DNA from: Reyranella aquatilis
Lineage (GTDB): Bacteria; Pseudomonadota; Alphaproteobacteria; Reyranellales; Reyranellaceae
Length of the DNA stretch: 64,000 bases
Reading direction: 5' to 3'
Assembly: GCF_020880995.1 (NCBI RefSeq)
Contig: NZ_JAJISD010000014.1
Coordinates: forward strand, 1 to 64,000
Shown here in pieces: positions 7,189 through 24,431 of the stretch (within the stretch, counting starts at the first letter, position 1; each line of letters starts with the position of its first letter). Below the pieces are notes generated by a model. The model was not told where the DNA came from, ran no database searches, and saw only the letters and a program-made list of their open reading frames with translations. The position numbers and the translations under genes were made by a program.

Positions 7189-7731
7189 CTACTTAAACCG
7201 GTTCCACTTTTCTGCCAGCGCGGAAGCACCCGCGAGCAAAGACGCACCTGCACCGAGGGTACTCCCGGCGGAAGCAGCGTTGCCGGTCCGCGCGTTGTGC
7301 AATGCGGCCTCGCCGCCGAAGCCGATCGCCCGCAGGCGATGCCCATAGGCTTCGCGAATCGCGTTGCTGCGCAAGGTCATAGCGTCCTGCTCACCGGCGG
7401 CCGCGGTATCGCCTAGGATGTCCGCAGGGCTGCCCTCCAGATCGGTGCCCTGTCCGGCGAGGCGGGCCAGTTGGCTCCCAAGCTGCTGCCGCAGCTGGGT
7501 GCGTCGGCTCATCTCGGCGACAAGGCCGCGCTGAAGCGCGTCGGCAGCCTGCCGCTGGGCGACTGCCTCGTTCTGCCGCGCCACCTGCGCTTGGTAGACC
7601 GCCTGTGCCTGCGCCTGGTTCGCCTGCTGTTGAGACGCCTCCTGCTGCTTCAACTGCCCTGCGAACCCGGCCGCGGTACTCACAGCCGACAGACCGAGTG
7701 AGATCATGGTTGCTGCGCTTAGACCCGACAT
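7189..7731 (-). CDS. Phage internal virion protein, gp14-like
   Basis: 180 aa. A hydrophobic Gly/Ala-rich N-terminus (residues 5-25) is followed by a Gln/Ala-rich coiled coil (27-110) and a Gly/Ala/Ser-rich C-terminus. This pattern and its place after the tail fibre match the gp14-like internal or ejection proteins of podoviruses, which line the DNA channel and enter the host envelope. ATG at 7731 follows GAGGA and overlaps the end of the cupin gene by 13 bases. It is the last intact gene of the cassette; gp15- and gp16-like genes that normally follow are absent. Confidence 0.65.
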   Translation of the reverse strand: MSGLSAATMISLGLSAVSTAAGFAGQLKQQEASQQQANQAQAQAVYQAQVARQNEAVAQRQAADALQRGLVAEMSRRTQLRQQLGSQLARLAGQGTDLEGSPADILGDTAAAGEQDAMTLRSNAIREAYGHRLRAIGFGGEAALHNARTGNAASAGSTLGAGASLLAGASALAEKWNRFK

Positions 7732-8165
7732 GCTTTGTCCTCTTTGCGCGTCATGAGTTTATCGAGTTCGTCGGTGAACTGACGCTCGGCCGATTCGAGA
7801 TCGCCGGCGTCGGTGGCGAAGATCATGGTAAGATGCGTGTCGGCAACGGCGAAGAGGGCCTGCTTTCGGCCTGCCGCTGCGGTGATCACGTTGTAGCCCT
7901 GCAGTTCGTGCGGCCCCTCGTCCACATGGACGACGGCATGCCCCTGTACGATCAGCAGCGTCGGAACCTTGATAAGCACACCGGTGATCATGACACCCGC
8001 GGGAACCATCACTGTGCGCGCATAGAGACCTGCGTGAAAGACGTGCCTCGTTTCGATCCGGTGTTGAGGCATTGCCAGTGCCAGCGCTTCCAGTCGACGC
8101 ACCCGTTCGATCGCCGCCGGGCCCATCGCCTCGATCCTCATGTCAGGGGCCAGCAGACTATTCAT
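7719..8165 (-). CDS. Phage cupin-like protein
   Basis: 148 aa from the ATG at 8165, preceded by AGGAGGG. Residues about 45-125 look like a small beta-barrel cupin, with a run of beta strands and VPAGVMITGVL near the start of the barrel. The usual metal-binding His set is incomplete. Similar small cupin-like proteins occur in the tail and ejection modules of podoviruses, function unknown. It overlaps the GNAT stop codon upstream by 8 bases and the gp14-like start downstream, so the three are probably translated together. Confidence 0.6.
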   Translation of the reverse strand: MNSLLAPDMRIEAMGPAAIERVRRLEALALAMPQHRIETRHVFHAGLYARTVMVPAGVMITGVLIKVPTLLIVQGHAVVHVDEGPHELQGYNVITAAAGRKQALFAVADTHLTMIFATDAGDLESAERQFTDELDKLMTRKEDKACRV

Positions 8166-8613
8166 TGGCAACCCTCCTGAAGAACACTCGGTTGGACTCG
8201 ACATACCCGACCCGCGGCAACACCTTGAACAGGTCGCCACCATAGGGAGCGCTGACGAGGAGCCCCGGCGATCCGAGCCGCCTCGCCAGGTCCTCGGCCG
8301 CACGCAGCAACTTCATCCCGGCACCTGTGGAGCGGTGGTTGCGGGCCACGAAGAAGCTCTCACTTACGGCAACGGCAATGCCATAGTGTGGCAGAGTCGG
8401 CATGAGAAGGGTCAGAAAGCCGACAAGGTGTTCGTCATGAGCCGCCGCCAGTACATGTAGCAACCCGCGCTTCTCGAGCTCGCGATAGATTTCGAACCGC
8501 GCCTGCGGTGGCGGCAACCCTTCGATCGAGCACTCGCGCGCATACTCATCGAGCAGAAGCGGGAGACGGACGTCGCTCGTCAACTCCGCGATACTGCTGG
8601 ATTGGATGTTCAT
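8158..8613 (-). CDS. GNAT-family acetyltransferase in the phage cassette
   Basis: 151 aa from the ATG at 8613. It shows a GNAT fold: strand HLVGFLTLL, strand AVSESFFVARNHRSTGAG (variant of the acetyl-CoA pyrophosphate loop, normally R/Q-x-x-G-x-G/A) and helix MKLLRAAEDLARRLG, ending GYVESNRVFFRR. The substrate is unknown. Such genes occur near tail genes of several podoviruses, where they may modify host or virion proteins. Coupled by a 4-base overlap to the gp13-like gene upstream and overlapping the cupin gene downstream. Confidence 0.8.
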   Translation of the reverse strand: MNIQSSSIAELTSDVRLPLLLDEYARECSIEGLPPPQARFEIYRELEKRGLLHVLAAAHDEHLVGFLTLLMPTLPHYGIAVAVSESFFVARNHRSTGAGMKLLRAAEDLARRLGSPGLLVSAPYGGDLFKVLPRVGYVESNRVFFRRVANE

Positions 8614-9065
8614 GGTGACTCCTTCCAGACACGGCGGAACACTCCGTGCGCCAGGACAAAGGGGGGACCGAACTCGAACCCAAGCCAGTCGAGCCACCGA
8701 AGTGCGGCGACGTACCTCGCGTCCACGACGTTGCGCAAGACGTCGAACATCGTCAGCCAGCGTGTCACCACCCGCCGCGTTTCGACCATGAAGGCGCGTT
8801 TGTGCCGATCCACCAGCTCGGTACCGAGGAGCCAGGGCACTCCCGTGTTGCCGATCAGGCTGTACGGCGACACTCCGGCCATGCAGATGATGCGCCCCTC
8901 GGCGTCCCGCACCGTCCAGGCCTCCCGTGCAGTCCGGATACCATCGGCCAAGGCGGCGGCTGGCGCACGGCCAAGCGCCACTACCTCCGCGAGGTCCGCT
9001 CTTCGCAAGCAACTGGCAAGCTCCACAATATCCGGGGAGATCGGGGCATGGAAAGACATCACCAT
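8610..9065 (-). CDS. Phage gp13-like internal virion protein (GNAT-like fold)
   Basis: 151 aa from the ATG at 9065, which follows AGGACGTGG; the ATG at 9059, in a TGATG overlap with the fibre stop, is the alternative. The C-terminal RYVAALRWLDWLGFEF matches the pattern of T7 gp13 family proteins, which have an acetyltransferase-like fold but are needed for virion assembly. WTVRDAEGRIICMAGV and GVPWLLGTELV fit the central strands. It is the second GNAT-fold gene in tandem. It may act in assembly, not catalysis. Confidence 0.7.
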   Translation of the reverse strand: MVMSFHAPISPDIVELASCLRRADLAEVVALGRAPAAALADGIRTAREAWTVRDAEGRIICMAGVSPYSLIGNTGVPWLLGTELVDRHKRAFMVETRRVVTRWLTMFDVLRNVVDARYVAALRWLDWLGFEFGPPFVLAHGVFRRVWKESP

Positions 9066-10489
9066 CCACGTCCTGCAGTAAACTTGAATTTCCACTTGCT
9101 TAAAGTAAGCACACCCTCAAGAACACCAGTTGTCTTAGTCACGGCATGAAATGCCTGCGAAGCACCGCTCGTAACGGCAATCGATCGTGAGGTTCTGAAC
9201 ATTGCTAGTGGAGCGACATTAACTCCGTCATAGATCCCAATACTCTGCTTCGTTAGTTGATCTCCAATGCTATAGCCTCGATCAGCTGCGGTACATTCAA
9301 TGACAAAGTCACTGTGGCAGGGGATAATTCCAATTCCATGACTAGCTGAGACAATTGTTGCCACTCCGGGTAGTGTCGGAGTGAATCCCGATTCGAACCT
9401 CCCATTGTATGCGTATGCGATTGTCGAGATTACACTCGTTGTATCGGTTGCCGCTTCCCCGACGAATACGAGGGTGGCCGGCGGCGCGCTTGCGCCGTTG
9501 CCGAGATAGCCGCGCATCTCCGAGATATTGAAGGTGAATTGGCCAGCGGCAGTGGAAGGGGTGCCCGCCCACTGATAGATGGGCGCGAGAACCGTCGACG
9601 CCGGAGTCAGCACTCCCGCTGCGATCGCCAGATAGAGAAAGTTAGGCGTCGTTGCAGCGCGGCCGGCGATCAATGCGGGCCAGGTGAGATTACCGGTAGC
9701 GACACCGACCGAATCGAGCGGAGCACCCGTGGCGGATGACCAACCTGCGGCAGCGGTAGCAGCCAGAGGATAGCTCGACGAAACGTTCTGGGTCTGCACC
9801 GTCAACGTCCCGCTCGTCGTGGCTGGCAGGAAGTTCGGCAAGCCCGCCGACGTGATGGGGCCTCCGCTCACCGTCTGGCGTACCCCGGAGTAGATCGGAT
9901 AGGACGGGACCTGCCAGGCCACATCCGCACCGCTGATGCCGAGAAACTGGCCCGTGGTGCCGCGCGGCAACCGCCTGTACCCGCTCCCGTCGCGGGTCAG
10001 GAGATCGCCGGCCGACGTAAGCCTGTGCATATCTCCGAGCGAGGTTTGCAGCGACTGAATCAGGCCATAGTTGGTCTGCTCGGTCGCCGGGTCGCTAATG
10101 CTGCTGACCGTGTTGCGTCCGACGACCTCGGCGATCTGCTGCAGCGCCATGTATATCTCGTCGAAGCGTCGTTCGACGACTTCGGGGTAGTAGCCACCTT
10201 GGTTGGAGAGGACCGTGGTCTGGGTGTAGGGAACGGTTCGGACGATCGTCAGCTTGGTCCCTGGGCCGATCGGGCTGCCAGCAAGCGGATAAGTCACGCT
10301 GCCACCGGCCGACGCGCCGATGCCGCTCACGCCGTAGAGCGAGGGCGCGAGGGTGGTCTCCGCGCCCGTGGCGTCGGTGTAGATCACCGACAGATGTGCG
10401 GCGTCGAGAACGGGAAAGCCATAGGGAAAGACGACGGCGCTGCCGTTGCCGGTGTGGATCACCTTGCGATCGATGTTCGTGAGGGCCAT
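9059..10489 (-). CDS. Phage tail fibre protein with T7-type N-terminus
   Basis: 476 aa. Residues 1-150 match the T7 gp17 N-terminal domain that attaches the fibre to the tail (MALTNIDRKVIHTGNG, then YYPEVVERRFDEIYMALQQI). The middle is Ser/Thr/Gly-rich and repetitive, as in fibre shafts. The last 130 or so codons (9059-9460) fall to about half GC against the upper 60s in the neighbours, a sign that the receptor-binding tip came from another source. No reverse transcriptase or template repeat of a diversity-generating retroelement is nearby. The stop overlaps the gp13-like start. Confidence 0.85.
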   Translation of the reverse strand: MALTNIDRKVIHTGNGSAVVFPYGFPVLDAAHLSVIYTDATGAETTLAPSLYGVSGIGASAGGSVTYPLAGSPIGPGTKLTIVRTVPYTQTTVLSNQGGYYPEVVERRFDEIYMALQQIAEVVGRNTVSSISDPATEQTNYGLIQSLQTSLGDMHRLTSAGDLLTRDGSGYRRLPRGTTGQFLGISGADVAWQVPSYPIYSGVRQTVSGGPITSAGLPNFLPATTSGTLTVQTQNVSSSYPLAATAAAGWSSATGAPLDSVGVATGNLTWPALIAGRAATTPNFLYLAIAAGVLTPASTVLAPIYQWAGTPSTAAGQFTFNISEMRGYLGNGASAPPATLVFVGEAATDTTSVISTIAYAYNGRFESGFTPTLPGVATIVSASHGIGIIPCHSDFVIECTAADRGYSIGDQLTKQSIGIYDGVNVAPLAMFRTSRSIAVTSGASQAFHAVTKTTGVLEGVLTLSKWKFKFTAGRGW

Positions 10490-10492
10490 GGC

Positions 10493-12979
10493 TCAGGCTC
10501 CGGCTTCGAGTCGGGGAATGATCGCCAGCAGGGTTGCCGGCAGCGGATTGGACTGGCGGACGAAGACGCGACCCGCCGCGCTCCAGTCCGGATCGATCAG
10601 CACGCGCTGGTCGCCGGTCGTCAGGGCCGTCGCAAACCCAGGCTGCTCCGACGTACGCTCCTTGATGTCGACCAGTCGGCTCGCGGTCGGCCCGGCGCTG
10701 AGACCGCGAGTGTCCTTCACGCGCAGCACGACCTCGTTCACCACCTTCTGCCGCCCCTGCAAGGTCGGTTGCCCTGCCTCCAGGTTCAGCGTCTCGAGAT
10801 CGCAGACATAGGGCAGGCCCGCCAGGATGGCGCCCGACGCGCGCGGCAGTACGATGGAGCCGTTGCGCACCGTGGCGGTCGGCTGCACCGATCCGTCGGC
10901 CAGCACCGCGAGCGCGCGGCCCTCCAGATGCCATAGGCCGTCCAGCGCGAGGGAGGCGAGCGCCCAATCCGGCGTCTCCACGTTCTGCAGACTGACATGC
11001 GGCGCGATGTCGAGCGTGGCGGTGGCCTCTCCCGGACCGCTCGACGACACGATCGAAACCGTCACCTGGTTCTGCCCGCGGCGCAGGATGTATTTCGAAC
11101 CCACCGAACCCGCACCGAACGGAGCGTGCCCCACCGCGTACAACGTGACGGTATCACCCGCCTCATAGCGGCTGCCCGATATGGCGAGTCGCCGGCTGGA
11201 CTCGTCGTTCCATCCGTCATAGCGCACGCCGCTGTCGACGCACCACGCGGCCTGGACGTCCGGGAAATATCGCGACGACATGCGCTCGATGTAGCGTCGC
11301 GTCTGGCCCCCGACGGTGCGTCTCACCGCGAGATACAGGATCGTCTCCGCGCCTTCCTGGACGGCGGCCACGCTTTCGACCGCACCGTCGGTGATGTGCC
11401 GTGACCAGGCGTAGACGTCGTGCTCCTTCAGGTATGTGAACGCCAGCAGCACGCCGTCGGCGCGCACGCACCAGACGATGCCGTGCGGGTCGCGTGCATA
11501 GGTCCACTCCTCGATCCCGTGCGCCTCGAACAGGTGCCCGGCGAAGATCGACACGTTGCGGCCCTGGAAGCTGTCCGATGTGAACTCGTAGGCGACATCT
11601 CGTACCTTGCGCGTGGAGGCCGTGACGTAGAGCGCGCTGCTCTCCGTCGCGATCGGCGGGATCTCGGCGATACCCTCGTAGCTCTGCGGCTTCACCGCGC
11701 AGTTAGCCGGCGTCATCACGTCGCCCTGCTGGCCCGCCCAGGCCTTCCAGACGGCGCCCGAGGTCCAGACCAGCAGCACGTTGAGACTCAGCAGAAAGCG
11801 GATCTCGTTGACCTCGCGGCTGGCGATGGTACGGGTGATGGCGTCGCTGTCCTTGGACGGCGAGCTGGTGTTCATGTTGTTGAAAGCCGCCGAGGCCGAC
11901 GAATAGAGCGTCTGCGGCTTGGTGTTGGTGCGGGCGTACCACTGCCGCCCCTCGTGATAGGTCGAGCAGCCCGGATATTTGTCCGCCGCGTCGAACGGGT
12001 TCTTGCTCTCCGGCGGCGTGTCGGAGGTGTCCGGGGCGACCGTCGTATCAGTGAAGCCCGGCGAGCCGCTCCCAGCGCGACCGATGAATCCGTACACGCC
12101 GTTCTTGCCCTTGTAGACGTTGTAGGAGTTGGCGCCGGGCGCGTTCGTCCAGAGCACGGTCGAGGTCTGGTCGGCCGAACTCGCCACGGCGGACGCCACG
12201 CTCTCCTCGCCGGTCTCCTCGCTGACCGCCGTGACGACATAGTCGAAGGCCGAGCCCGGATAGTCGGATAGGACGCCGGTCGGCGGTTGCTGGGTCGGCG
12301 CATAGCCGATCGCCGTCAGCGTCCACGCCGCATGGCCCGTGCGCGTCAGGTTGCGCGGCGCGTAACCCGGATGGGTGAGCGTCATCGTATCGGCGCTCTG
12401 CACGAACTTCAGCCGCGCCAGATCGGCTGCCACATAGGGCGTGTCGATCGTATAGAGGCGGGCCGCGCTACCGCCCGCGCTCCAGACGCCGTAGTCCGAG
12501 GTGTCGATGCCAATCGAGAAGCTCGAGCCGCCCAGCACCGTCACCGAGAAGCGACGGCGGTTGACCTGGGTCATGCCCGCGACGCCGTCGATCCACAGCG
12601 CGTCACCGGTCGACAGACCGTGCGGCGCCGACGTCGTCACCACCCCGGGGCTGGCCCTGGTGATGCCGGAAACCGCCACCGCGGCTTCAAGGACGTACCC
12701 GCCCTCCTTCACCACGCGCATCTTGCGGTCGCCGAATTCCAGCACGTAGGTCTGCTGGGTGTTGAAGCTGAACGGGATCAACCGGCTGCGCGTCGCGGAG
12801 TCCAGGACTTCGCCAACGAACGACGTGCCGGCCCGCGTGCTGGCGCCGCCGAACGGGTGGATGAACCAGTTGAGGCAGGTCGCGAGGCCAACCTGATACT
12901 TGTTGTTGTCGACGCGGCCCTGCAGCGCCGGCGCCAGCTCGCCCGCGGCAAAGCTCGGCAGGATGATGGGCGTGGTCAT
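10493..12979 (-). CDS. Phage tail tube/nozzle protein (gp12 position)
   Basis: 828 aa from the ATG at 12979, in a 4-base ATGA overlap with the gp11-like gene; the longer upstream frame is a shadow. It opens with ILPSFAAGELAPALQGRVD and FIHPFGGASTRAGTSFVGEV, the signature of a large podoviral structural protein found between gp11 and the fibre. T7 gp12 is 794 aa, and position plus size suggest the nozzle role. A fibronectin-like segment is possible around 215-260. No catalytic motif seen. Confidence 0.75.
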   Translation of the reverse strand: MTTPIILPSFAAGELAPALQGRVDNNKYQVGLATCLNWFIHPFGGASTRAGTSFVGEVLDSATRSRLIPFSFNTQQTYVLEFGDRKMRVVKEGGYVLEAAVAVSGITRASPGVVTTSAPHGLSTGDALWIDGVAGMTQVNRRRFSVTVLGGSSFSIGIDTSDYGVWSAGGSAARLYTIDTPYVAADLARLKFVQSADTMTLTHPGYAPRNLTRTGHAAWTLTAIGYAPTQQPPTGVLSDYPGSAFDYVVTAVSEETGEESVASAVASSADQTSTVLWTNAPGANSYNVYKGKNGVYGFIGRAGSGSPGFTDTTVAPDTSDTPPESKNPFDAADKYPGCSTYHEGRQWYARTNTKPQTLYSSASAAFNNMNTSSPSKDSDAITRTIASREVNEIRFLLSLNVLLVWTSGAVWKAWAGQQGDVMTPANCAVKPQSYEGIAEIPPIATESSALYVTASTRKVRDVAYEFTSDSFQGRNVSIFAGHLFEAHGIEEWTYARDPHGIVWCVRADGVLLAFTYLKEHDVYAWSRHITDGAVESVAAVQEGAETILYLAVRRTVGGQTRRYIERMSSRYFPDVQAAWCVDSGVRYDGWNDESSRRLAISGSRYEAGDTVTLYAVGHAPFGAGSVGSKYILRRGQNQVTVSIVSSSGPGEATATLDIAPHVSLQNVETPDWALASLALDGLWHLEGRALAVLADGSVQPTATVRNGSIVLPRASGAILAGLPYVCDLETLNLEAGQPTLQGRQKVVNEVVLRVKDTRGLSAGPTASRLVDIKERTSEQPGFATALTTGDQRVLIDPDWSAAGRVFVRQSNPLPATLLAIIPRLEAGA

Positions 12980-13614
12980 GCGCCGCCTCCCCATGCATCG
13001 CCCAGCCCGTCGAAATCGCGCGCCACCAGGCTCTGCGCCAGCCGGTCGGCCTCGGCCTGCGCGATGCCCTCGTTCGCACTGTCGGCGCGGGCGCGCTCGA
13101 TCCGCTCCGCTGCGCGCTTCGCCAGCATCTCCGCGAGGTCGGACTTCTGTGTGATGGCATGCGCCACCGCCGCAGCAAGGCAGTCGACGAAGGCCAGAAT
13201 GAAGCCCGGCGTGAAGCGCGCCGGATCGGTCACCCTCTGGGCGTAGACCGCCGAGACCCTGTCCTCGTTGCAGTAGAGGAAGGTACCGCTGCCGCTGGAG
13301 GCGATCTCGAAACCGCTTGCCGGATCGCCGGCCACCCAGCTCGCGGCGCCGAAATCGAGCCGCCGCATCTTCAGGCAATCCGACGGATAGGCGTAGCTCG
13401 ACGCCCAGCGCGCCGGGGGCGCTCCGGAAGCGGCGAGCGCCTGCGACACGCGATTGAAATTCCAGTCGACCAGCGACTGGAGATCGTCGCGCACGGTCGC
13501 ATACCAGAGATTGATTTGGCGCGCCTCGGTGCTGTTCTCGGTGAGGTCGGCGATGGTGGCGCGCGTGCCGAGACGGCTCAGCGCCATGTTGCCGATGTCG
13601 GTGTCGGCCGGCAT
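12976..13614 (-). CDS. Phage tail tubular protein A (gp11-like)
   Basis: 212 aa; T7 gp11 is 196. The N-terminus (DIGNMALSRLGTRATIADL, then TEARQINLWYATVRDDLQ) is the typical start of podoviral adaptor/tail tube A proteins. These sit beneath the portal and connect it to the nozzle. The stop overlaps the start of the 828-aa nozzle gene. It follows the holin gene directly, with no gap. Confidence 0.82.
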   Translation of the reverse strand: MPADTDIGNMALSRLGTRATIADLTENSTEARQINLWYATVRDDLQSLVDWNFNRVSQALAASGAPPARWASSYAYPSDCLKMRRLDFGAASWVAGDPASGFEIASSGSGTFLYCNEDRVSAVYAQRVTDPARFTPGFILAFVDCLAAAVAHAITQKSDLAEMLAKRAAERIERARADSANEGIAQAEADRLAQSLVARDFDGLGDAWGGGA

Positions 13615-14154
13615 CTAGCGCCCTCCCCCGACGACGGCCTTCTCGAGCGCGGCGCTCTTCTGCGCCGAGCCCGAGCTCGAACCCACCCAGTAGGCGACGA
13701 TGTCGCCGAACTTGGCGCCCAGCGTGCCCAGCAGGATGTAGGCGATCTCGCGCGAGGCGAGCGGGATCTCCTGGCGCACGACGAACCACAGCGCCGCCAT
13801 GAAGGCCGTCGTCACCAGCACGCTGACGGCGACCGCCCCCCAGGCAATGGCCGAACCGGCCTTGGCGAGTTCGACCGTCTGTTGGCGGGCGCTCTGCACA
13901 TCGGCGAGCCGGGCCTGCAGCGTGTCGAACTCCTGTCGGCGGGCATCGGCTTCGGCTTGGATGACGGCCATCCGGAACTGCAGCGCGAGGTTGGGATCGG
14001 CCGCGATTGCACGCTCGATGCCCTCGGCGCTGTCGGTGCCGAGCATGTCACGGGCGATCCCCGTCACCTTCGCCACGGCGGCGCCGGTCTTGTCGCCCAG
14101 GATCCACGAGGCGACGGTCGGCGCGAGGCCGAGCAGCAAGGGAAGAAACGGCAT
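13615..14154 (-). CDS. Holin with C-terminal membrane segments
   Basis: 179 aa. Hydrophobic segments lie at about 1-20, 103-125 and 137-160, separated by a charged helical region. The layout resembles the three-transmembrane holin family first described for gene transfer agent release. It would open the inner membrane to the lysozyme encoded just upstream, with which it is contiguous. No separate Rz/Rz1 spanin pair was found. Confidence 0.75.
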   Translation of the reverse strand: MPFLPLLLGLAPTVASWILGDKTGAAVAKVTGIARDMLGTDSAEGIERAIAADPNLALQFRMAVIQAEADARRQEFDTLQARLADVQSARQQTVELAKAGSAIAWGAVAVSVLVTTAFMAALWFVVRQEIPLASREIAYILLGTLGAKFGDIVAYWVGSSSGSAQKSAALEKAVVGGGR

Positions 14155-14628
14155 CTAGGCCTCCTGCGAAAGGAAAAGGTCACGCTCGGCAGCACGGCGG
14201 GTCACGAGGCCCGGCAGCACGCCGTCGGCACCACGGTTCCAGCGCCTGAACTGTTCGGCGGCGCCCGCCCTGTCACCGCCATTGAGCAACCGCCGCAGCG
14301 TCGAGTTACCGAAGGCCGCCGCGCCGCAGTTGAAGACGAAGCTCACCAGCGCATCGAACTGGCCCTGCATCAGCACCACATCGACGAGATCCTTCACCGC
14401 CCCCTCGGCGGCCTGCAGGTCCTCACGCAGCCAGGCCGTGGCCTGCTCCTCAGTGCAGGTGTCGCCTCGACGCACCCCGCGCGTATGGCCGTAACCGATG
14501 GTCCAGGGTTCGCCGGTGACGCGATTGCCGGGGTCGGGATAGGCCACGGTCTCCAGGCCCTCGAAGCGCTTCACCAGCGCGAGGCCCGCATTCGACATGA
14601 CGAGCCCGGAATTGGCGGCGTTGCTCAT
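14155..14628 (-). CDS. Phage lysozyme (glycoside hydrolase family 24)
   Basis: 157 aa. The GH24 signature is visible: catalytic Glu in KRFEG (residue 23), then an Asp and Thr-x-Gly-Tyr-Gly-His-Thr in EPWTIGYGHTRG, giving the E-D-T triad of T4-type lysozymes. The C-terminal ALVSFVFNCGAAAFGNSTL is also typical. There is no signal or SAR anchor at the N-terminus, so export depends on the adjacent holin. It cleaves the peptidoglycan glycan strand for host lysis. A second start at MSNAGLALVK, ten codons in, is possible. Confidence 0.93.
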   Translation of the reverse strand: MSNAANSGLVMSNAGLALVKRFEGLETVAYPDPGNRVTGEPWTIGYGHTRGVRRGDTCTEEQATAWLREDLQAAEGAVKDLVDVVLMQGQFDALVSFVFNCGAAAFGNSTLRRLLNGGDRAGAAEQFRRWNRGADGVLPGLVTRRAAERDLFLSQEA

Positions 14629-14635: not shown

Positions 14636-14905
14636 CTACTTGCCGGGGAGCTTGGTCGAGGCGAAGAAGACCAACGCGCCGATCAGGACGAGGGCGAGCC
14701 CCTGCCCGATCTGCTTCAGCGCGCCATCGCGCACGGTCCGGTACATGTTGAACAGGTCGCGCAGGCCGCGGATGTGCTCCGGCGCCTTGTCATCTCCCAG
14801 ACCGATGCCGGTCAGCGCCTTGCGCGCGCCGCGCTCGGCGGCATCCTCCAGCAGGGCGTCGAGCGCCTCGCGCGGCAGGACGATCGGGTAACGGCCGCCG
14901 CTCAT
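14636..14905 (-). CDS. Small phage membrane protein
   Basis: 89 aa from the ATG at 14905, in an ATGA overlap with the gene upstream. A soluble helical N-terminal part (PREALDALLEDAAERGARKA) precedes one hydrophobic segment near the C-terminus (GQGLALVLIGALVFFAS). It resembles small one-pass proteins of alphaproteobacterial prophages (DUF6127-like), whose function is unknown. Its place just before the lysozyme gene suggests a lysis accessory role. Confidence 0.6.
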   Translation of the reverse strand: MSGGRYPIVLPREALDALLEDAAERGARKALTGIGLGDDKAPEHIRGLRDLFNMYRTVRDGALKQIGQGLALVLIGALVFFASTKLPGK

Positions 14906-16309: not shown

Positions 16310-16362
16310 GCAATTCTCCTGGGGAGAGGTGGGGCCGGCCCTCTCGACCAGCCCCTGCTTCT

Positions 16363-16649: not shown

Positions 16650-17078
16650 TCAGGTCACGGTGAAGCCTGGCGCGTAGGCCCTGGAGGCCTGGCGATCGTG
16701 GGCGAGGAAGGCGGTGAACTTGCCGGCCGTGAGCGGGCCGGTGGCCACCGTGTAGTTGGTGCGCAGGTAACGCTCGGCATCGAGCGGCACCTTCACGCGC
16801 AACACCTCGGTGCCGGCGGTCAGAGCCGCCTTGCCGACGGCGCCCGAACTGGCGAGCACCAGCGTCGAGGAGAAGCCGGCATTGTCGTCGGTCTCCAGGG
16901 TGAAGGAGACGGTCGCGGCGCCGGCGGCGGTGACCGTCTCGGTAACGAGGATCACCAGTTCGAGCGGCTCGCCGTTGCCCATGTCGCGGGCGGCACCGAG
17001 GTCGATGATGTCGGTCGAGGCGGCGGTCGTGGTGACCGCCTGGTCGGTGCCGAACGTATTGAGCTTGTCGTACATCAT
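16650..17078 (-). CDS. Capsid cement protein (Bbp16-like)
   Basis: 142 aa. The start MMYDKLNTFGTDQAV and the IIDLGAARDMGNGEPLELV segment match the pattern of the Bbp16 capsid cement protein family of Bordetella phage BPP-1. Members bind the outer capsid surface and stabilise it. It directly follows the major capsid gene, as in BPP-1-like phages. All-beta composition, no signal peptide. Confidence 0.75.
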   Translation of the reverse strand: MMYDKLNTFGTDQAVTTTAASTDIIDLGAARDMGNGEPLELVILVTETVTAAGAATVSFTLETDDNAGFSSTLVLASSGAVGKAALTAGTEVLRVKVPLDAERYLRTNYTVATGPLTAGKFTAFLAHDRQASRAYAPGFTVT

Positions 17079-17106: not shown

Positions 17107-18126
17107 CTACGACACGGTCGCTTCGGCCAGCGTGATCTGGTCGCACTTCCGGATCGGGATGCCGCCGAAGCTGTCGAAGATCCGGCCGTCGCTCTCGTCG
17201 AGCGTACGGCGGATGTTGCTGTTGTTGGTGGTGCTGGAGACAGCGGCGCCGATGTTGCGCTGGATGTCGAGCCACTGCTTGACGGTACGGTTCATGTACC
17301 AGGCGGGCTTGCACATCTTGATGTTGGGGATCTTGTTCATCGCCCGCATCATCAGCTTGACGAGGTCGGCCGGCGTGGAGCCCGCGAGATCCGAGACGTC
17401 GATGTTGCCGATGCGCACGACGTAGCGCCAATCGCGCACCGTCAGGCCCGCATCCCACTTGTAGTGCGTGCGATAGCCCTGGTAGCGGTTGCCGGCGGCG
17501 TCGAGCAACGTCTGCTCGCCGAGGTCCTTCATCGACAGCCCGGCCTTGCTGCCCTTCGGGAATATGCCGTGAACGGTGAGGTCGCCCCAGCCGACCAGCC
17601 AGATCGACGTGTTGTCGGAGCCGGCGCCACCGGCCGAGATGAAGTTGTTGGCGGTTTGCGATGTCGAGGTCGACGTCGTGTTGTAGCGCGGCGAGAATCC
17701 CATGAAGCGTTCGGGATTGGTCGCGGTGTTGCCGTAGAACAGCACGCCGGCGAGCTGCTGCGTCAGCCCCTCGAGGAAGGCGCGGTCCTCGGACAGTCGA
17801 TAGGCGGCGGTGTTGCCGTTGAGGTCCGCGAGCGCCTTGTCGATCTCCGAGTAGGTCTCCAGCATGCCGCAGGAGTCGGTGATCTGCGTGCTCGTGCTCT
17901 TGGTCGGCACGATACCCTCGTTGAAGCGGCGCCAGGTGCCGGTCGGCAGCGAGGTCTGCACGCTGGTGCGGTGGCCGGTGGGCAGGTTGCCCTCGTTCCA
18001 CACCATGTCGTCGGTGATCTCGTTCATCTGCGACAGCAGCGAGATCACCTGCGCGATGCCGCCGTTGGGGTCGAGGACCTTGGACCAGTCGGCCAGGGTC
18101 GGGTTGGTCACGGAAAGCGTTGCCAT
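17107..18126 (-). CDS. Major capsid protein (BPP-1-like)
   Basis: 339 aa. It has the layout of HK97-fold capsid proteins of the BPP-1 podovirus group: N-terminal TLADWSKVLDPNGGIAQVI, then LPTGTWRRFNEGI, a Ser/Thr-rich tip region (about 145-170) and a C-terminal GGIPIRKCDQI. There is no sign of a protease gene or N-terminal propeptide. The scaffold gene is just upstream, 12 bases away, and the cement gene downstream. Confidence 0.88.
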   Translation of the reverse strand: MATLSVTNPTLADWSKVLDPNGGIAQVISLLSQMNEITDDMVWNEGNLPTGHRTSVQTSLPTGTWRRFNEGIVPTKSTSTQITDSCGMLETYSEIDKALADLNGNTAAYRLSEDRAFLEGLTQQLAGVLFYGNTATNPERFMGFSPRYNTTSTSTSQTANNFISAGGAGSDNTSIWLVGWGDLTVHGIFPKGSKAGLSMKDLGEQTLLDAAGNRYQGYRTHYKWDAGLTVRDWRYVVRIGNIDVSDLAGSTPADLVKLMMRAMNKIPNIKMCKPAWYMNRTVKQWLDIQRNIGAAVSSTTNNSNIRRTLDESDGRIFDSFGGIPIRKCDQITLAEATVS

Positions 18127-18138: not shown

Positions 18139-18753
18139 CTAATTGTGCTGCGAGTTGGGGTAGAGGGACTTCGGATCCATCGCGCCGCCGCCGCGGCCGG
18201 CATTGCCGCCCACGAACGAGTCGTCCCTGATGGCATTGGCCACCTTCACCATCCCTCGGATCAGGCCGGGATGGTTGGTGAAGCCCAGGCTTTCGAGCGT
18301 GGCGATGGTCTGCCGATCGAACACCCGGGCAAGCGCGGTGCGGGCATTGCCCAGCGCCTCGGGTGAAAATTCCTTCTCCGACGTGGTACGCCACTCGGCG
18401 GTCTGTTTCGTCCAGGAGGTCGTGGCGTGCTCGTTGACCGCGCGTGCGATCTGCTTGTCGCGCTCGATCGTGAAGTCGATCAGCCGCTGCGCCGTGTCGG
18501 GCGCGATCTTCTCGCCCTCGAACAGCTTGATGGCCTCGCCGAACACCGGATCGTCGACGCGATAGCCCTCCGGCAGCGCGAGGCCGGAGTAGTCGGCCGG
18601 CGCAGCCGCCGCCGCTTCATCGACTGCCGCGTCCATGGGCGCCGGCGCCTGTCGGGCCTCATCCTCGCGGACGGCGGCCGTGTGCGTGCCCGGTCCCGCC
18701 TCGGGTGCCGGCGTCGATGCCGGCAACGTGTTCGTGTCGATCGTATCAGCCAT
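18139..18753 (-). CDS. Phage scaffolding protein
   Basis: 204 aa, acidic. The N-terminus is Ala/Pro/Glu-rich and disordered (1-60). A helical core (about 70-170) contains FGEAIKLFEGEKIAPDTAQR, followed by a Gly/Asn-rich tail. This composition, and its position between the portal side and the capsid gene, fit an internal head scaffold. It overlaps the preceding gene by 8 bases. Confidence 0.75.
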   Translation of the reverse strand: MADTIDTNTLPASTPAPEAGPGTHTAAVREDEARQAPAPMDAAVDEAAAAAPADYSGLALPEGYRVDDPVFGEAIKLFEGEKIAPDTAQRLIDFTIERDKQIARAVNEHATTSWTKQTAEWRTTSEKEFSPEALGNARTALARVFDRQTIATLESLGFTNHPGLIRGMVKVANAIRDDSFVGGNAGRGGGAMDPKSLYPNSQHN

Positions 18754-19102
18754 CGTTCTGCTCCTCTGCGATCAGGTCGGCCAGTTCCGCCTCGACCTGC
18801 ATCAGGCGGGCTTCCTCGCTCATCCGTTCGGTCAGGTGCGGCGCGTGCCGCTCGAGTTCGCCCAGCAGCTCGATGCCGATGCTGCGGCGGCCGGCCATGT
18901 AGTCCTGGTGCCGCTGCGCCTCGGGACCGCCCGGGACGTAGCCGTCGCTGCGGAGATTGCAGAGGCCCAGCAGCCCATGGACGAAGCGGCGGCCGTACTC
19001 GGTCTCCATCACCGCGTGGAGATCGTCGGCGGCACGCTCGCGACCGAGCTTCTCGCGCTGCTCGGCCTGGCGAACCTGCCGCGCATCGTTCGGATCGTGC
19101 AT
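18746..19102 (-). CDS. Small phage head-module protein (Bbp19-like)
   Basis: 118 aa, strongly helical and charged. Contains METEYGRRFVHGLLGLC and YMAGRRSIGIELLGELE, a pattern found in small conserved proteins between portal and scaffold genes of BPP-1-like phages (Bbp19 family). Function unknown; an assembly factor is possible. It lies 3 bases after the portal gene and overlaps the scaffold start. Confidence 0.6.
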   Translation of the reverse strand: MHDPNDARQVRQAEQREKLGRERAADDLHAVMETEYGRRFVHGLLGLCNLRSDGYVPGGPEAQRHQDYMAGRRSIGIELLGELERHAPHLTERMSEEARLMQVEAELADLIAEEQNDG

Positions 19103-19105: not shown

Positions 19106-20779
19106 TCAGACTCCCAGGATGGATTGAAGCGCGCTGCGGCCGCCCCCGACCTCGGTCTCGCTGAGCGTCTTGGCACCCTGCGCGACGGCCGACGCCGTCT
19201 GCAGGGCCTGAGCCGCCTGCGCCTGGCGCGCCCGCTCGGCGCGCAGCCGGGCGACCACGTCATCGGCCACGGTTATGGCGGCCGGAGCGCCGAGCTTGTC
19301 GGCATAGACGTCGATGCTTTCGTCGGCGTTCAGCTTGTCGAGCACCTCGGGGCGCGTCGCCGCGATGTTGCCGGCGAAGGCCCACAGCCGCTCCACGCTG
19401 CCGAGGTCCGCGGCCTTCTGCGCCTGGGCCAGGATCGAGATCAGCTCGACGTCGAGCGGATAGCCGTGAAGCTCGCGCGGCGGCTCGCTGAACAGCCCGT
19501 GCTCGCCCATGATCGTGAAGGTGCGCTGGACCAGCGGCTGCAGCAGGTCGTCGTGCAGGTTCTCGAGCACAGGCCCCAGCATCTGCATCTTCTCCTCGCG
19601 GCGCGTGCTGATCTCGAGCTGGTTGCGCGGCTGCACGCCCTCCATCTGGTCGAACATCAGGAAGAGGTCCGCGAAGAAGGCCGACTTGATGACGGCCTGG
19701 GTGCGCGTGACCAGACGCTCGACCTCGGCGATGGCGCCGGGAGCGGTCTGGTAGAGCGGCCACATCCCCGCTCCCCTCTCCTGGGTGGTGAAATAGTTGA
19801 TGGCACCCGGCAGCACCGACGAGGCCGAGCCGCGCAGGCTGATGTGAGCGCCCATCGGCGGGTTCACATGCTTGTCGACCGCGTTGTGCTCGCGCTTCTT
19901 CAGGATCTGCAGCGACTTCACGTCGGGCAAAGCGTCGTGGCCGGGCCCCTTCGAATAGGCGTCGTTGCCGACCGGCGCCCAGCGCGGCGTCAGTGCCGGG
20001 AACTCCGAATAGCCGCCGCGATGGATGAACTCGCCGTCCGCCTGCCCCGCTCCCTCGCGCCAGTAGACCGAGCGGAACTTCTTGCCGGCCCAGTCGAGCC
20101 GGCCCTTCTCGAAGCCCGCGTTGGGCTCGACCATGTGCAGGATCGCGATCTCGCTGTCGGCGTCGTCGCCGCGCGCCTTGTCCGTGATCTCGGCGATGCC
20201 GTGATCGGGCCAGCGCTCCTCGATCTGGCGGTACGAATACATGAAGCGCCGCGCCAGCGTGTCGACCCGGCCGCGCCAGTCGAGGCCCAGCCAGTATTCG
20301 CCGATCGACAGCGTGTAGAGGCGGATCACGTCCTCGCGGTCGAACTCGACGATCGCGCAGCCAGTGCCGAACTGGCCCAACTCCTCGTAGATCAGCGGAA
20401 GCGCCGAATAGAGGTTGCCGGCGTTGAACACCATGCGCATGCGCTCGGCGCACTCGTCGAGCCAGACCTTCACCGGCGCCAGCGACGCCACGCGGCGATC
20501 GGCAATGGTGAGCCGAAACCAGGGCCGTGCCGGCGAGGTGACACCCGACATCAGGCCCGCGACCAGCGTGCGCAGCGCGAACAGCGCCGTTGGGTCGAGG
20601 ATCGCGCCGTTGGCCTGCGCGCCGCGCCCGCCCTGGTTGGGCGAGGTGAAGAACTGGCCGCGCCGCGGGTTGATGAAGCGCGAGAGGTCGCGCCAGCCCG
20701 GTTCCCACGATTGACGCTGACGCTTCAGCACCGCGAGGCGGGCGTCGATGTGGCGGCGAAGCGCGGGATCGTGCGCCAT
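19106..20779 (-). CDS. Portal / head-to-tail connector protein
   Basis: 557 aa, the size of T7-like portals (536). It begins with a helical RLAVLKRQRQSWEPGWRDLS region and SRFINPRRGQF, then SGVTSPARPWFRL, all hallmarks of the podoviral head-tail connector family. The C-terminal 60 residues are Ala/Gln-rich helix. The dodecameric ring forms the DNA entry vertex and docks the terminase. Next to the small 93-aa gene and separated from the terminase by the oxidase insertion. Confidence 0.92.
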   Translation of the reverse strand: MAHDPALRRHIDARLAVLKRQRQSWEPGWRDLSRFINPRRGQFFTSPNQGGRGAQANGAILDPTALFALRTLVAGLMSGVTSPARPWFRLTIADRRVASLAPVKVWLDECAERMRMVFNAGNLYSALPLIYEELGQFGTGCAIVEFDREDVIRLYTLSIGEYWLGLDWRGRVDTLARRFMYSYRQIEERWPDHGIAEITDKARGDDADSEIAILHMVEPNAGFEKGRLDWAGKKFRSVYWREGAGQADGEFIHRGGYSEFPALTPRWAPVGNDAYSKGPGHDALPDVKSLQILKKREHNAVDKHVNPPMGAHISLRGSASSVLPGAINYFTTQERGAGMWPLYQTAPGAIAEVERLVTRTQAVIKSAFFADLFLMFDQMEGVQPRNQLEISTRREEKMQMLGPVLENLHDDLLQPLVQRTFTIMGEHGLFSEPPRELHGYPLDVELISILAQAQKAADLGSVERLWAFAGNIAATRPEVLDKLNADESIDVYADKLGAPAAITVADDVVARLRAERARQAQAAQALQTASAVAQGAKTLSETEVGGGRSALQSILGV

Positions 20780-20782: not shown

Positions 20783-21064
20783 TCAGCCTCCCAACAGGGT
20801 CTTGCCGCCGGCACCGCCAGCGCCACCGACACCCGCCCCGCCGAACGCGCCCGACGCAGTGGTCGAGGCGTTACCGGTGACTCCCAGCCCGCCAGTGGCG
20901 ATGGTCGAGGCATAGCCCGCCATGGCCGCGGCGCGCTTCTTCTGCGCCTCGCGCGCCTCGCGCACCGAGGGATCGGCCATCGAGGGAACAGGCGGCGGTG
21001 CCGGCGGCAGAGCCGGCGGCGAGATCGGAGGAAAAGCGGCCTGGCCGCCACCAAATATTCCCAA
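20783..21064 (-). CDS. Small Pro/Gly-rich phage protein
   Basis: 93 aa beginning at TTG (21062-21064), which follows GGAGAG. Residues 8-28 are Pro-rich, then a short basic helix, then a Gly/Ala/Thr-rich tail. Proteins of this make-up are common beside portal genes in podoviral modules; function unknown. It is the first phage gene after the oxidase insertion. Confidence 0.5.
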   Translation of the reverse strand: MGIFGGGQAAFPPISPPALPPAPPPVPSMADPSVREAREAQKKRAAAMAGYASTIATGGLGVTGNASTTASGAFGGAGVGGAGGAGGKTLLGG

Positions 21065-21226
21065 GGGGTTCTCTCCTGTGAGAAGCGAGCCCCTGAGTTA
21101 CTGATGAAGCGGACTTTGGAGATGCAAGAGGGAAAAAGGTGAGCCGTCGACGGGAGCGGTCAGATCTCATCTTCTCTTCAGGACAAGCGCTGCTTGCTTG
21201 CGGCACCGTCCGGGAAAGAGTCGATG

Positions 21227-22633
21227 CTAGAGGAAGCCGCGGTAAACCAGCGTCGCAAACATGCCCGCGGCCATGTGGTAGAGGTTGTGACAGTGAAAGG
21301 CCCATAGGCCGGGATTGTCGGCATCGAGCGCAACCTTCACGACCGTGCGCGGCGGGACCAGGATGACGTCGCGCATCGCGCCCGCAAGGGTTTGCCCATT
21401 GATCTCCCTGACCTGAAAGGAGTGGCCATGAAGATGCATGGGATGCGACATCATCGTCGTGTTGCGCATCACGAGCTCGACACGTTCCCCCTTTTCGACG
21501 TTTACCGGCAGGCCTTCGAGTCCATGGACGCCGACGCCCCAGGAGTAGGCCATCATGTTCCCGGTCAGATCGATCGGTACGGAGCGGTCCACGGGACGGC
21601 TGACCAGCGGCTTCTGGGCACGAAGCCTCGCTTCATCCGTGAGATCGAGTGCCGACGCGGCCATCGCCGCCATTTCTGGAATACGGGCGACGGCGGCGCC
21701 GCGCGGGCGCAACACAATGCCGGTCTGAGACATCCGCCCCTCGCAGCGCGCCAGTACCGGCAACGCCGTAGCATCGGCGGGCAGGCGCACCGCGATGTCA
21801 ACTCTCTGCGCAATCGCCAACGGAAACTGGCGCACGACAAGCGGTTCTACCGGATTTCCGTCGACGGTCAGCACGGTACCGCTCACGGCACCGAGATCGA
21901 TCACGAAGTTCGACGAGGCCGCGCCATTGATGATTCGAAGGCGCACCTCGGCGCCCTTCTCGACGTCGATCACCTGCGGATCGGCGAGCGTGCGGTCGTT
22001 GGCGAGGAAGGCATCGTAGGTGACATCGTTGAGATCGGGTCGGGCAGCCGCCATGTTCATGCCCGTGCCGTTCATCGCGCCTTCAGGCCTGGGGCGACGT
22101 AGATCGTCGAAGATCCGGCGCGGCTCAGTCCACGAGAAATCCTCGAGGAGGATCACGACCTCCTGCATGCCGCTGCGGATGGCGCTCTCTTCGCGCACGA
22201 TCAAGGGCGCGGCCAGGAGGTTCTGCTCCTGAAGGCCGAAATGAGAGTGCATCCAGCGCGTACCCACCGGCAGGGCCGGAAAGCGGTAGTCGGCGAATCG
22301 ACCCGGCGCGATCGGCGGACCGGAAAGATACGGCACGCCGTCCTGTCGCCACGGTGGGTTCAGCCCATGCCAATGGACTCCGGATTCCACGTCCAACCCG
22401 TTCTCCAGTCGAACGTCGAAGATATCCCCCTCGTTCAGCGTCAGGCCAAAGGCGCCGGAAGGCTGCTCGACGCCATATCGCTTGGCCGCCTTGCCGTTTA
22501 CCTCAAGGATGCGGTTGGTAAGCCTCAGTAAGCGGCGCTCGGGGCCGGGCGGCTGCTGAGCCGGAGCACCTCTTGCCATGGCCAGTGCCACGGCACTCGT
22601 TCCGCCAACCAACAGATGCCTGCGCTTCAGCAT
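21227..22633 (-). CDS. Multicopper oxidase with signal peptide, inserted in the phage packaging module
   Basis: 468 aa. The N-terminus MLKRRHLLVGGTSAVALAMA looks like a Tat-type leader. All four copper-site motifs are present: HWHG (87-90), HSHFG (129-133), HPMHLHG (397-403) and HCHNLYHMAAGM (447-458), giving the type 1, 2 and 3 copper ligands. It is a periplasmic oxidase of the three-domain laccase/CueO-like class, oxidising metals or phenols with O2. It sits between terminase and portal, which are normally adjacent, on the same strand. A terminator at 22735-22775 isolates it, so it behaves like a moron gene. GC is slightly lower than in the phage genes. Confidence 0.93.
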   Translation of the reverse strand: MLKRRHLLVGGTSAVALAMARGAPAQQPPGPERRLLRLTNRILEVNGKAAKRYGVEQPSGAFGLTLNEGDIFDVRLENGLDVESGVHWHGLNPPWRQDGVPYLSGPPIAPGRFADYRFPALPVGTRWMHSHFGLQEQNLLAAPLIVREESAIRSGMQEVVILLEDFSWTEPRRIFDDLRRPRPEGAMNGTGMNMAAARPDLNDVTYDAFLANDRTLADPQVIDVEKGAEVRLRIINGAASSNFVIDLGAVSGTVLTVDGNPVEPLVVRQFPLAIAQRVDIAVRLPADATALPVLARCEGRMSQTGIVLRPRGAAVARIPEMAAMAASALDLTDEARLRAQKPLVSRPVDRSVPIDLTGNMMAYSWGVGVHGLEGLPVNVEKGERVELVMRNTTMMSHPMHLHGHSFQVREINGQTLAGAMRDVILVPPRTVVKVALDADNPGLWAFHCHNLYHMAAGMFATLVYRGFL

Positions 22634-22734
22634 CGGAGTTCTTCCCGGACCGTTCGACAGTACCGGGACATTATCAGCTCGCCGTGCGGTCAGCTGAAAA
22701 GTTGCTTTGAAGGGCTAGGCGGCACCAACTGAAA

Positions 22735-22780
22735 AGGCCCGCCGTTCAATCGGGGATGATGAGAACGGCGGGCCTCCAGA
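22735..22780 (-). terminator. Rho-independent terminator after the large terminase
   Basis: Perfect 13-base arms 22735-22747 and 22763-22775 (AGGCCCGCCGTTC/GAACGGCGGGCCT). Read on the minus strand, TTTT follows the stem. It lies between the terminase stop and the oxidase start, so terminase transcripts should end here and the oxidase and downstream virion genes need their own promoter. Confidence 0.8.
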
Positions 22781-22892
22781 CATCGGGGCGGCCGGTCGAA
22801 ACGGTCTCCCAGGATGCCTCCCTGCCGCCTCTGGGGACGGTTGGTCCGACCTTGCCATTGCAGTCGGTGTGAGTCCAGCGTAACCGGCCGGC

Positions 22893-24431
22893 CTACAGGT
22901 CCCCGTGCGGGTCGTAATCGGACTGGATGGTGTTGGCGGCGACGCTTCCGCCCTCCCCCGCGCCGCGCCCGTCGAACCGCGCATCGTCGGGCAGGTCGGC
23001 CACCGGATAGGCGAAGGTGAGGCAGAGGCCGTCGGCATTGTCGGGCGAGGCCAGGCCGCGCTTCTTCATATCCTCCTTCTTCTCGAGGCGGATGGCGTTA
23101 TGCAGGTCGAAGCCATATTCGCGCCCCGTCAGCTCGGCCTTCAGCTCCGGATCATCGGGGATGGCGCCGGTCCTGAGCCACGCGCGCATCGAGGCCCACA
23201 TCTCGGCCGCCTTGTTGGCGGTGAGCGGCATGCCGTCGCCCAGCGTATAGCGATCCGCGCGGCCGCCGAAGTTCACGCCGACGACGAGATGGCCCGGCAG
23301 CATCTGACGCACCCGGTCGACCACGCCGGCGCCGATGCCGCCCTCGTCAATGAAGACCGCCGCAGCGCGATGGTGCATCGCCTGCTCCGCCACCTTGCCC
23401 GAGAGCAGCATAAGGTCGCTCACCCGCAGCTTGATCGCCGGGACCGTGCGCGCGTCGCGGCCGCGGCGGAACCAGATGGCGCTCTGGTCGTCGCCGCCGC
23501 GCGCGCAGTCGACGCCCATCACCAGTGGCTGACGAAGATGGCTTTCGGCGGGACGGCGCGTCGCCTCCTCCACCGTCTCGCTGTCGATGAACTGCATGGC
23601 GCCTCCCCTCGGAAACTCACCCTTCACGCGCACACGGAAGAAGTCGCTGTCGTCGCCATAGTCGGCGGCCCATCGCGCGATCTGCTCCTTGTCGGTGAGC
23701 GAGACCTGGCGGCCGTCGACCTGGTGGCGATGCCAGCGATGACGGAAGCGGCCGAAACATTCGCGGAAGCGGCCGGTGTTGCGCGTCGGGTTGCCGGTCG
23801 CCAGCCACAGGATCTCGGTGTCACGGTCGGTCAGCGCGCCCTCGATCGTCTCCCACACCGGATCGGGAATGGCCGAGGCCTCGTCGAAGGCGACGAACAG
23901 GCGGCGGCCCTGGTTGTGCAGGCCGGCAAAGGCCTCGGTGGCGCGCAGGCTCCACGGCACCGCGTCGATGCGCCAGGTGCGCTCGTGCGCGGGTTCGACG
24001 CTGTGGATCGCAGTGGCCGCTACCTCGAACCAGTCCGCGCAGGCGGCGAGCCGCAGCCATTTGACGAGTTCGGGCCAAGTCTTGGTCTTGAGCTGCGTCG
24101 CAGTGTTGGCCGTGACGATGCCGCGCGTGTCGCGGAAGGTGGCCAGCGCCCAGACGATGATCCAGGCCACCAGCGCCGACTTGCCGACGCCGTGGCCCGA
24201 GGCGACGGCGATGCGGATGGCGTCGGGCAAGGTGCCGAGGGAGTGCCCGATCTCGGACAGCACCTCGCGCTGCCACGGCTCGGGCCCTGGGTCGTGCGCC
24301 AGCGGCGTGCCCGCCTCGCCCCACGGGAAGGCGAACAGCACAAAGCCTAGCGGGTCATGCGCAAAGCTCCCGACCTCGATGCCGAGCGGATCGAGGGCGG
24401 GCTCGCGAGGGACATCGGGTTCATCAGCCAC
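22893..24431 (-). CDS. Phage terminase large subunit
   Basis: 512 aa from GTG at 24431, preceded by AGGAA; the longer frame upstream overlaps leuC and is a shadow. The packaging ATPase has Walker A SGHGVGKS (78-85) and Walker B LFVAFDE (178-184). The C-terminal nuclease has acidic residues Asp308 (MGVDCARGGDD) and Asp362 (VFIDEGG), and DNADGL near the end. It cuts concatemeric DNA and pumps it through the portal. No small terminase gene is adjacent. The neighbouring leuC starts 81 bases away on the other strand. Confidence 0.93.
   Translation of the reverse strand: MADEPDVPREPALDPLGIEVGSFAHDPLGFVLFAFPWGEAGTPLAHDPGPEPWQREVLSEIGHSLGTLPDAIRIAVASGHGVGKSALVAWIIVWALATFRDTRGIVTANTATQLKTKTWPELVKWLRLAACADWFEVAATAIHSVEPAHERTWRIDAVPWSLRATEAFAGLHNQGRRLFVAFDEASAIPDPVWETIEGALTDRDTEILWLATGNPTRNTGRFRECFGRFRHRWHRHQVDGRQVSLTDKEQIARWAADYGDDSDFFRVRVKGEFPRGGAMQFIDSETVEEATRRPAESHLRQPLVMGVDCARGGDDQSAIWFRRGRDARTVPAIKLRVSDLMLLSGKVAEQAMHHRAAAVFIDEGGIGAGVVDRVRQMLPGHLVVGVNFGGRADRYTLGDGMPLTANKAAEMWASMRAWLRTGAIPDDPELKAELTGREYGFDLHNAIRLEKKEDMKKRGLASPDNADGLCLTFAYPVADLPDDARFDGRGAGEGGSVAANTIQSDYDPHGDL

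Follow-up and report, generated by a model that had tools for sequence, protein, structure and literature searches.

The 64,000-nucleotide stretch of Reyranella aquatilis DNA analysed here (positions 1 to 64,000 of contig NZ_JAJISD010000014.1, assembly GCF_020880995.1; hereafter the window, on contig C6 of genome G000) holds, at 7189-24431 on its minus strand, a 17.2-kb cassette that constitutes the full late region of a BPP-1/epsilon15-type podovirus. The make-up and distribution of this cassette suggest a hitherto undescribed kind of tamed virus-like particle that may serve to deliver toxins or DNA.

All genes of the cassette are on the minus strand. Read from the large terminase, TerL (22893-24431; phrog_5902, E 2e-69; phrog_2, E 5e-43), which is followed by an inserted multicopper oxidase gene, they specify a small Gly/Ala-rich protein that is kept in carriers and phages (20783-21064), the portal or head-tail connector (19106-20779; PF12236, E 3e-137), a Bbp19-like protein (18746-19102; phrog_528, E 5e-15; PF25181, E 5e-4, which is below the curated cut-off), a putative prohead protease or scaffold (18139-18753; phrog_458, E 2e-25), the major capsid protein (MCP; 17107-18126) of BPP-1/epsilon15 type (PF20911, E 6e-133; Protein Data Bank (PDB) entries 3j4u, E 4e-113, and 3j40, E 3e-79) and a Bbp16-like protein (16650-17078; PF21190, E 5e-39). 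Next come a small conserved head-region protein (16363-16635; 86-93% identical in carriers), a conserved small protein whose start is probably internal, at MAQDIAY... (15944-16366; 77-87%), a fast-evolving and possibly fibre- or decoration-like protein (15120-15947; phrog_26223, E 1e-6) and a small fast-evolving protein (14902-15123; 48-69%). A DUF6127 protein with a C-terminal hydrophobic stretch (14636-14905; PF19622, E 4e-14) is a candidate holin; it precedes a phage lysozyme (the endolysin; 14155-14628; PF00959, E 8e-44; phrog_7, E 5e-59) and a conserved protein that, by its position, may be a spanin or other lysis accessory (13615-14154; phrog_1544, E 1e-23). The tail genes specify the tail tube (12976-13614; phrog_394, E 5e-38), a nozzle-type protein (10493-12979; phrog_376, E 1e-195) and a fast-evolving fibre (9059-10489; phrog_1640, E 4e-25, over residues 3-120) of which the N-terminal attachment part is the conserved part. 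The cassette is completed by an internal virion protein (8610-9059; phrog_308, E 3e-31), a GNAT acetyltransferase (8158-8613; PF00583, E 5e-8), a fibre-associated protein (7719-8165; phrog_12032, short tail fibre, E 8e-21) and a gp14-type ejection protein (7189-7731; PF24072, E 2e-6; phrog_418, E 8e-21). The first-pass annotation had called the terminase, portal, head, tail and lysis genes intact-looking, and they are intact: all are present, none has an internal stop, and a motif alignment shows that TerL keeps its nuclease, Walker A and Walker B motifs in 6/6 complete carriers.

The same annotation had listed what is missing, and the list is right. Integrase (of the tyrosine type) is absent from contig C6, and the cassette has no repressor, early, replication or lysogeny genes. 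A small terminase (TerS) of the type found in related phages and the giant gp16-type protein are found neither in the whole G000 genome, which is 99.8% complete, nor in near-complete carriers. One correction concerns gp15. A 35-codon stub of the gp15 N-terminus remains at the cassette end (7156-7052 on the minus strand, that is, 7052-7156; tblastn, 51% over 35 aa, E 3e-5), and since it lies directly behind gp14 the cassette must formerly have continued into gp15. The ejection set (gp14, gp15 and gp16 types) is thus represented at the cassette by gp14 and this stub. An integrase or early region just beyond the window is ruled out: host genes lie on both sides, the flanks are the same in relatives, and contig C6 carries no integrase. 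A functional BPP-1/epsilon15-type phage is excluded in turn, the head, connector and tail module matching but replication, lysogeny, TerS and the full ejection set being missing.

The MCP is 54-56% identical to those of the closest cultured phages. The nearest relatives outside the carrier clade, viral contigs L026, L055, L057, L059 and L078 (MCP 83-89%, TerL 63-64%), look like ordinary phages. On the 41.5-kb contig L026, a repressor-like gene, a helicase gene and TerS accompany the late genes, together with genes for gp15 (765 aa) and a gp16-type protein of 2,904 aa, which makes the cassette equivalent to such a phage minus its early genes, TerS, gp15 and gp16.

A family search of 75 genomes, 65 of them Reyranella, found parts of the cassette at high identity in G042, G044, G024, G030, G008, G056, G059, G033, G026, G013 and G016 (92-98% for MCP, 82-94% for TerL and 88-96% for the portal; MCP identity in intact carriers is 94-98%), and scraps at the same place in G028. 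About 30 metagenome contigs bear the same genes at the same level of identity, and the MCPs of other Reyranella podoviral prophages are at most 67% identical. Late regions are fully intact in the window, in G042 and G024, and, independently, in contigs from metagenomes (L036 and L061, for example).

The site is shared. The same two host genes, one at 26610-27068 (minus strand) and a YflT-type gene at 25992-26579 (minus strand; PF11181), precede TerL in seven well-assembled Reyranella species (the window, G042, G024, G030, G008, G044 and G056), and the YflT-type gene adjoins TerL or its remains in the last six of these and in G028. The first-pass annotation had placed the locus beside leuC. The common locus is confirmed, but the LeuC-like aconitase-family gene (24513-25925, plus strand; PF00330, E 2e-165) is a variable neighbour that may or may not lie between, present in the window, G030, G008, G056, G016 and G033 and absent from G042, G024 and G044; it was therefore gained or lost after the cassette arrived. 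On the right, a semialdehyde dehydrogenase gene, the gene at 3853-4305 and a LysR gene (together 2761-5543, plus strand) are conserved in G042 and G044, and in G030 and G008 the contig of the cassette has the dehydrogenase marker as well, ~20 kb further to the right.

Those carriers that have a full rpoB all fall into a single, 100%-supported clade of an rpoB tree. The sister pair G035/G021 has the left flank gene and lacks both the cassette and the toxin-type gp15 genes described below. A second tree, built from ten genes of the cassette, returns the same two groupings (window/G042/G033/G044 and G030/G056/G008/G026/G059, with G024 near the latter). On this comparative evidence, the cassette is old, vertically inherited and fixed at a single host locus. 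The cassette is present in related species, and host genes adjoin it on both sides; both findings go against what had been named as grounds for giving up domestication.

Measuring the ratio of nonsynonymous to synonymous substitution (dN/dS) on capsid, portal and terminase had been proposed as the check, and it gives low values, indicative of purifying selection: by NG86, which understates dS under the strong bias in third-position GC content (GC3) seen here, dN/dS is 0.08-0.19 for TerL and 0.07-0.14 for the portal, and for the concatenated core 0.18 (0.16-0.21) between the window and G042 and 0.12 between G030 and G008, with dS 0.39-0.54. Flanking host genes have similar or higher dS. For the window and G042, neutral drift predicts ~105-135 stops; no internal stop occurs among the compared cassette gene copies. 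TerL, portal and MCP are the most constrained; the fibre (dN ~0.3), internal virion and gp14-like proteins evolve fast, as expected of recognition parts, and so does the possibly fibre- or decoration-like protein (dN/dS 0.14-0.44). The lack of stops and the low dN/dS argue for purifying selection. (The first-pass annotation had offered a recently truncated prophage as the simpler alternative; 'recently' is contradicted by the shared locus and co-divergence, which rule that origin out.)

Insertions have repeatedly entered the gap that separates TerL from the portal, which is a hot spot for them (window 21227-22633, L046:3108-4364, L047:4876-6156, L052:1800-3080). In the window it is occupied by the host-type, CopA-like multicopper oxidase (21227-22633, minus strand; PF07731/PF07732/PF00394), a lineage-specific insertion with no homologue in assembled relatives; viral contig L046 has a 75-78% identical homologue in the same slot on the opposite strand. 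Elsewhere the gap contains a 426-aa protein (in L046, L047 and L052) or other genes (in G024 and G056).

The place vacated by gp15 at the cassette is not empty in all carriers. Directly behind gp14 of the G044 cassette lies the gene of a 700-aa protein, and G042 has scraps of such a gene at the same position. Homologues of this protein, here called gp15-toxin proteins, are encoded elsewhere in nearly every genome that has the cassette. Two intact genes (C12 268760-270856 and C1 416081-418489) and a remnant on C25 are found in G000; those of G024, G030, G008, G056, G028, G034 and G042 share one common host locus that has no other phage genes; and gp15-toxin proteins are also found away from the cassette in G033 and G044. 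Across the 65 Reyranella genomes, presence of these proteins is associated with that of related portal/capsid genes (20/5/6/34; Fisher p 2e-7, which is only indicative because the genomes are related, the classes having been assigned by hand). Used alone, a G000 gp15-toxin protein gave 0 matches in a scan of viral contigs; an alignment query gave 2.

The family shows a polymorphic-toxin layout, in which a conserved N-terminus is joined to a variable C-terminal toxin domain: the first 490 residues are conserved and the remainder varies. Both the N-terminal half and gp15 of phage contig L067 group with phrog_10475; the N-terminal half is also weakly similar (E 3e-10) to gp15 of L026. The predicted fold of this half (modelled on the viral-contig homologues L269/L270) is all-helical. 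It matches predicted virion proteins of podoviruses that contain cell-wall hydrolase domains (E 7e-11) and, with weak E-values, the T7 gp15 structures 6yt5, 9jyy, 7k5c and 7eyb. Pfam, including its MuF domain, has no match in this half; identity as a MuF toxin is ruled out, phrog_10475 and the T7-gp15-like fold standing in place of the MuF domain. In the wider family, C-termini match Colicin M (G010, E 6e-18), Tlde1 (G051, E 4e-7), Ntox33 (G044 C3, E 1.6e-11) and SLT (G033, E 4e-8). Small neighbour genes co-vary with the C-terminus in the manner of immunity genes, and match no known immunity family. Orphan N-terminal scraps and partial copies, as are usual for polymorphic toxins, lie next to the intact genes or away from them at L231:8846-12489 (G000 C1) and L232:7331-9755 (G000 C25).

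A smaller element comprises TerL, a small protein, portal, a gp15-toxin gene, a putative immunity gene or orphan module and a gp14-type protein, with no other phage gene. It occurs at L263:7756-15629 (G031 C148) and in L248 (G029), L268 (G051), L265 (G010), L264 (G025), L269 and L270, and in several species it sits between recurring host genes, which judging by their sequences code for an AI-2E-type transporter on one side and for an outer-membrane protein on the opposite side. It may be another domesticated form.

Comparison among the genomes shows a single locus, clade-wide vertical inheritance, purifying selection and intact TerL, portal, capsid, tail and lysis genes. The reading preferred for this combination, at about even odds (roughly 0.5), is a vertically inherited, domesticated podovirus-like particle that is kept by selection and provided with toxin-type ejection proteins in trans. 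A temperate BPP-1/epsilon15-type podovirus would have entered the ancestor of one Reyranella clade and then shed TerS, the giant gp16-type protein and the early genes, the late operon being kept as a host-owned particle factory. The cell would build short-tailed, podovirus-like particles that TerL fills with DNA (in the absence of TerS, presumably largely unspecific host DNA), and the lysozyme module would lyse the cell and free them. The fibre would bind relatives, and the gp14-type and gp15-toxin proteins would be ejected into the envelope, the place of gp15 being filled in trans by proteins that consist of a T7-gp15-like ejectosome half and a variable, often cell-wall-attacking C-terminal half. 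Such a particle would carry toxins into competing relatives and inject them into the periplasm, whether or not DNA is transferred too; delivery to the periplasm fits because 3/4 of the recognised C-termini act on the cell wall. The more specific proposal, that the DNA-filled domesticated particle is an antibacterial weapon in which gp15 is an interchangeable toxin family, encoded apart and loaded in trans, so that each particle might bring several toxins to bear on relatives without immunity genes, is made tentatively and is less likely than not.

Several observations weigh against this reading. Several carriers have lesions, which the proposal of a domesticated particle in the first-pass annotation did not foresee (in respect of the shared locus, monophyletic carriers, co-divergence, low dN/dS and absence of stops that proposal fares well): G044 lacks part of TerL, portal and protease, G028 retains scraps only, G016 has a deletion from portal to fibre, in G030 a tail protein is fused to the fibre, everything from the phrog_308 gene to gp14 is missing from G008, and G056 has a portal frameshift (some of these genomes are metagenome-assembled, and part of the lesions may be assembly error). 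Core dN/dS is also ~2x the value for the small number of flanking host genes. Of the two intact gp15-toxin proteins of G000, neither has a C-terminus that matches a known toxin family, and the C12-type C-terminus, modelled on viral-contig homologues at low confidence (pLDDT 60), has no PDB match. No shared motif upstream of TerL and the gp15-toxin genes is evident by eye in alignments, no motif finder having been run. The loss of the gp16-type protein may block entry of DNA into the recipient cytoplasm. Long-term maintenance with repeated loss is the most economical reading of intact and damaged copies together. (The deletion scar in G028 C58, L206:10670-12249, joins ends of the TerL, portal, MCP, tail and fibre genes and leaves the Bbp19-like and protease genes whole.)

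The serious rival, although an unlikely one, is slow and patchy decay of an ancient prophage remnant in which some weak benefit (immunity to related phages, lysis, or recombination with incoming phages) kept the late operon awhile and lineage after lineage is now losing it. The independent deletions in G044, G028, G016, G030 and G008 and the frameshift in G056 are what such decay would leave, as is the loss of the early region, TerS, gp15 and gp16, and many other podoviral prophages and remains are found in Reyranella. Decay at dS 0.39-0.54 should, however, have produced ~100 stops per pair, and the core has 0 in any carrier; the lowest dN/dS falls on TerL, portal and MCP, and the late regions that are still fully intact come from separate genomes and metagenome contigs.

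A podovirus-type gene transfer agent (GTA) is possible, and the gp15-toxin proteins suggest another or additional cargo than host DNA. That DNA exchange is the sole function, with the gp15-toxin proteins belonging to other prophage-derived elements, is improbable. Endogenisation, vertical inheritance, retention of TerL and loss of TerS all agree with it. Side-chain carbon per residue, the measure of the lower amino-acid cost reported for RcGTA-like elements (PMC7360931), is below that of near phage relatives in TerL, portal, tail tube and protease, but the signal is absent from MCP, Bbp16 and tail376 (it is present in 4/7 proteins). Moreover, DNA has no known way across the envelope when gp15 and gp16 are missing, and in G044 the cassette's own gp14 is followed by a gp15-toxin gene.

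A satellite-like, helper-dependent element that takes TerS, gp15 and gp16 from related phages, resident or incoming, and owes its retention to parasitising or poisoning these phages, is very improbable: related prophages are frequent in the genus, and G056 has second-copy structural genes that are 53-81% similar, but the genes that satellites usually lack are those for the capsid, not those for replication, and satellites are mobile, whereas the cassette stays in place and is devoid of mobility genes; no other PF05065-type capsid is found in G000, G042 or G044, and in G000 TerL, portal and MCP give one hit apiece. (The second copy in G056, on C58, is a mosaic podoviral region, L216:4284-19275, with portal 81%, TerL 66% and MCP 53% relative to the window and a TerS-like gene upstream.) A tailocin-like particle, also offered by the first-pass annotation, is rejected as unlikely, since MCP, portal and TerL are intact and under the strongest constraint.

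If the particles are made, the cassette would be a viriform, a podovirus-type element that has been domesticated and whose phylogenetic history is clear from carriers, decayed copies and a cassette-free sister pair. It would also allow a natural test of what such particles are selected for, DNA exchange or killing. The gp15-toxin proteins would then constitute a new delivery domain for polymorphic toxins, one that joins GTAs and phage-derived weapons.

The features by which GTAs are recognised (PMC9662315) are particle proteins derived from Caudoviricetes, a content of mostly random host DNA, full endogenisation, often at several loci, an own genome that is not fully packageable, vertical inheritance with co-diversification, and delivery of DNA to cells. 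The cassette has 3/6 of these (Caudoviricete-derived proteins, endogenisation and vertical co-diversification) and is therefore not filed as a GTA; endogenisation at several loci would depend on the link between the gp15-type proteins and the cassette, which is inferred. Intact TerL and absent TerS are only compatible with particles that contain mostly random host DNA, and a head as large as that of the 40-kb relatives would have room for the 17-kb cassette, the loci in trans staying out. The genetically defined GTAs in an ICTV-oriented review belong to other lineages (PMC9662315). Searches of the literature turned up no GTA of podovirus type and no toxin carried by a gp15-type protein, which is weak evidence, as subscription papers were mostly outside coverage.

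Among known systems, podoviruses of the BPP-1/epsilon15/phiV10 type share MCP, portal, Bbp16- and Bbp19-type genes and gene order with the cassette, which differs in lacking TerS, early genes, integrase, gp15 and gp16 and in being inherited vertically at one host locus. RcGTA and the alphaproteobacterial type I GTAs are likewise endogenised, with TerL kept, vertical co-divergence, purifying selection and virion-type genes at further loci. The RcGTA head and tail set is siphovirus-like; that of the cassette is podovirus-type and accompanied by toxin-type ejection proteins. BaGTA, the type II GTA of Bartonella, is also a host-owned, phage-derived cluster in an alphaproteobacterium, for which tailless, short-tailed and long-tailed particles are reported; as described, it is set apart by its HK97-type MCP, a TerL of another lineage and a virus-derived replication origin (PMC9662315), the last having no known counterpart in the cassette. 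The T7 gp15/gp16 ejectosome is approached by the predicted all-helical N-terminal fold of the gp15-toxin proteins, which differ in their C-terminal toxin-type domains and have no gp16 partner that could be found in carriers. Phage-borne polymorphic toxins are already known: the MuF toxins (PMC5576092) and Bxa (PMC11699363) also place a variable C-terminal toxin on a phage-derived N-terminal part, with adjoining immunity genes. What distinguishes the family described here is an N-terminal part that is T7-gp15-like, and genes that often stand alone at host loci, in trans to those of the virion.

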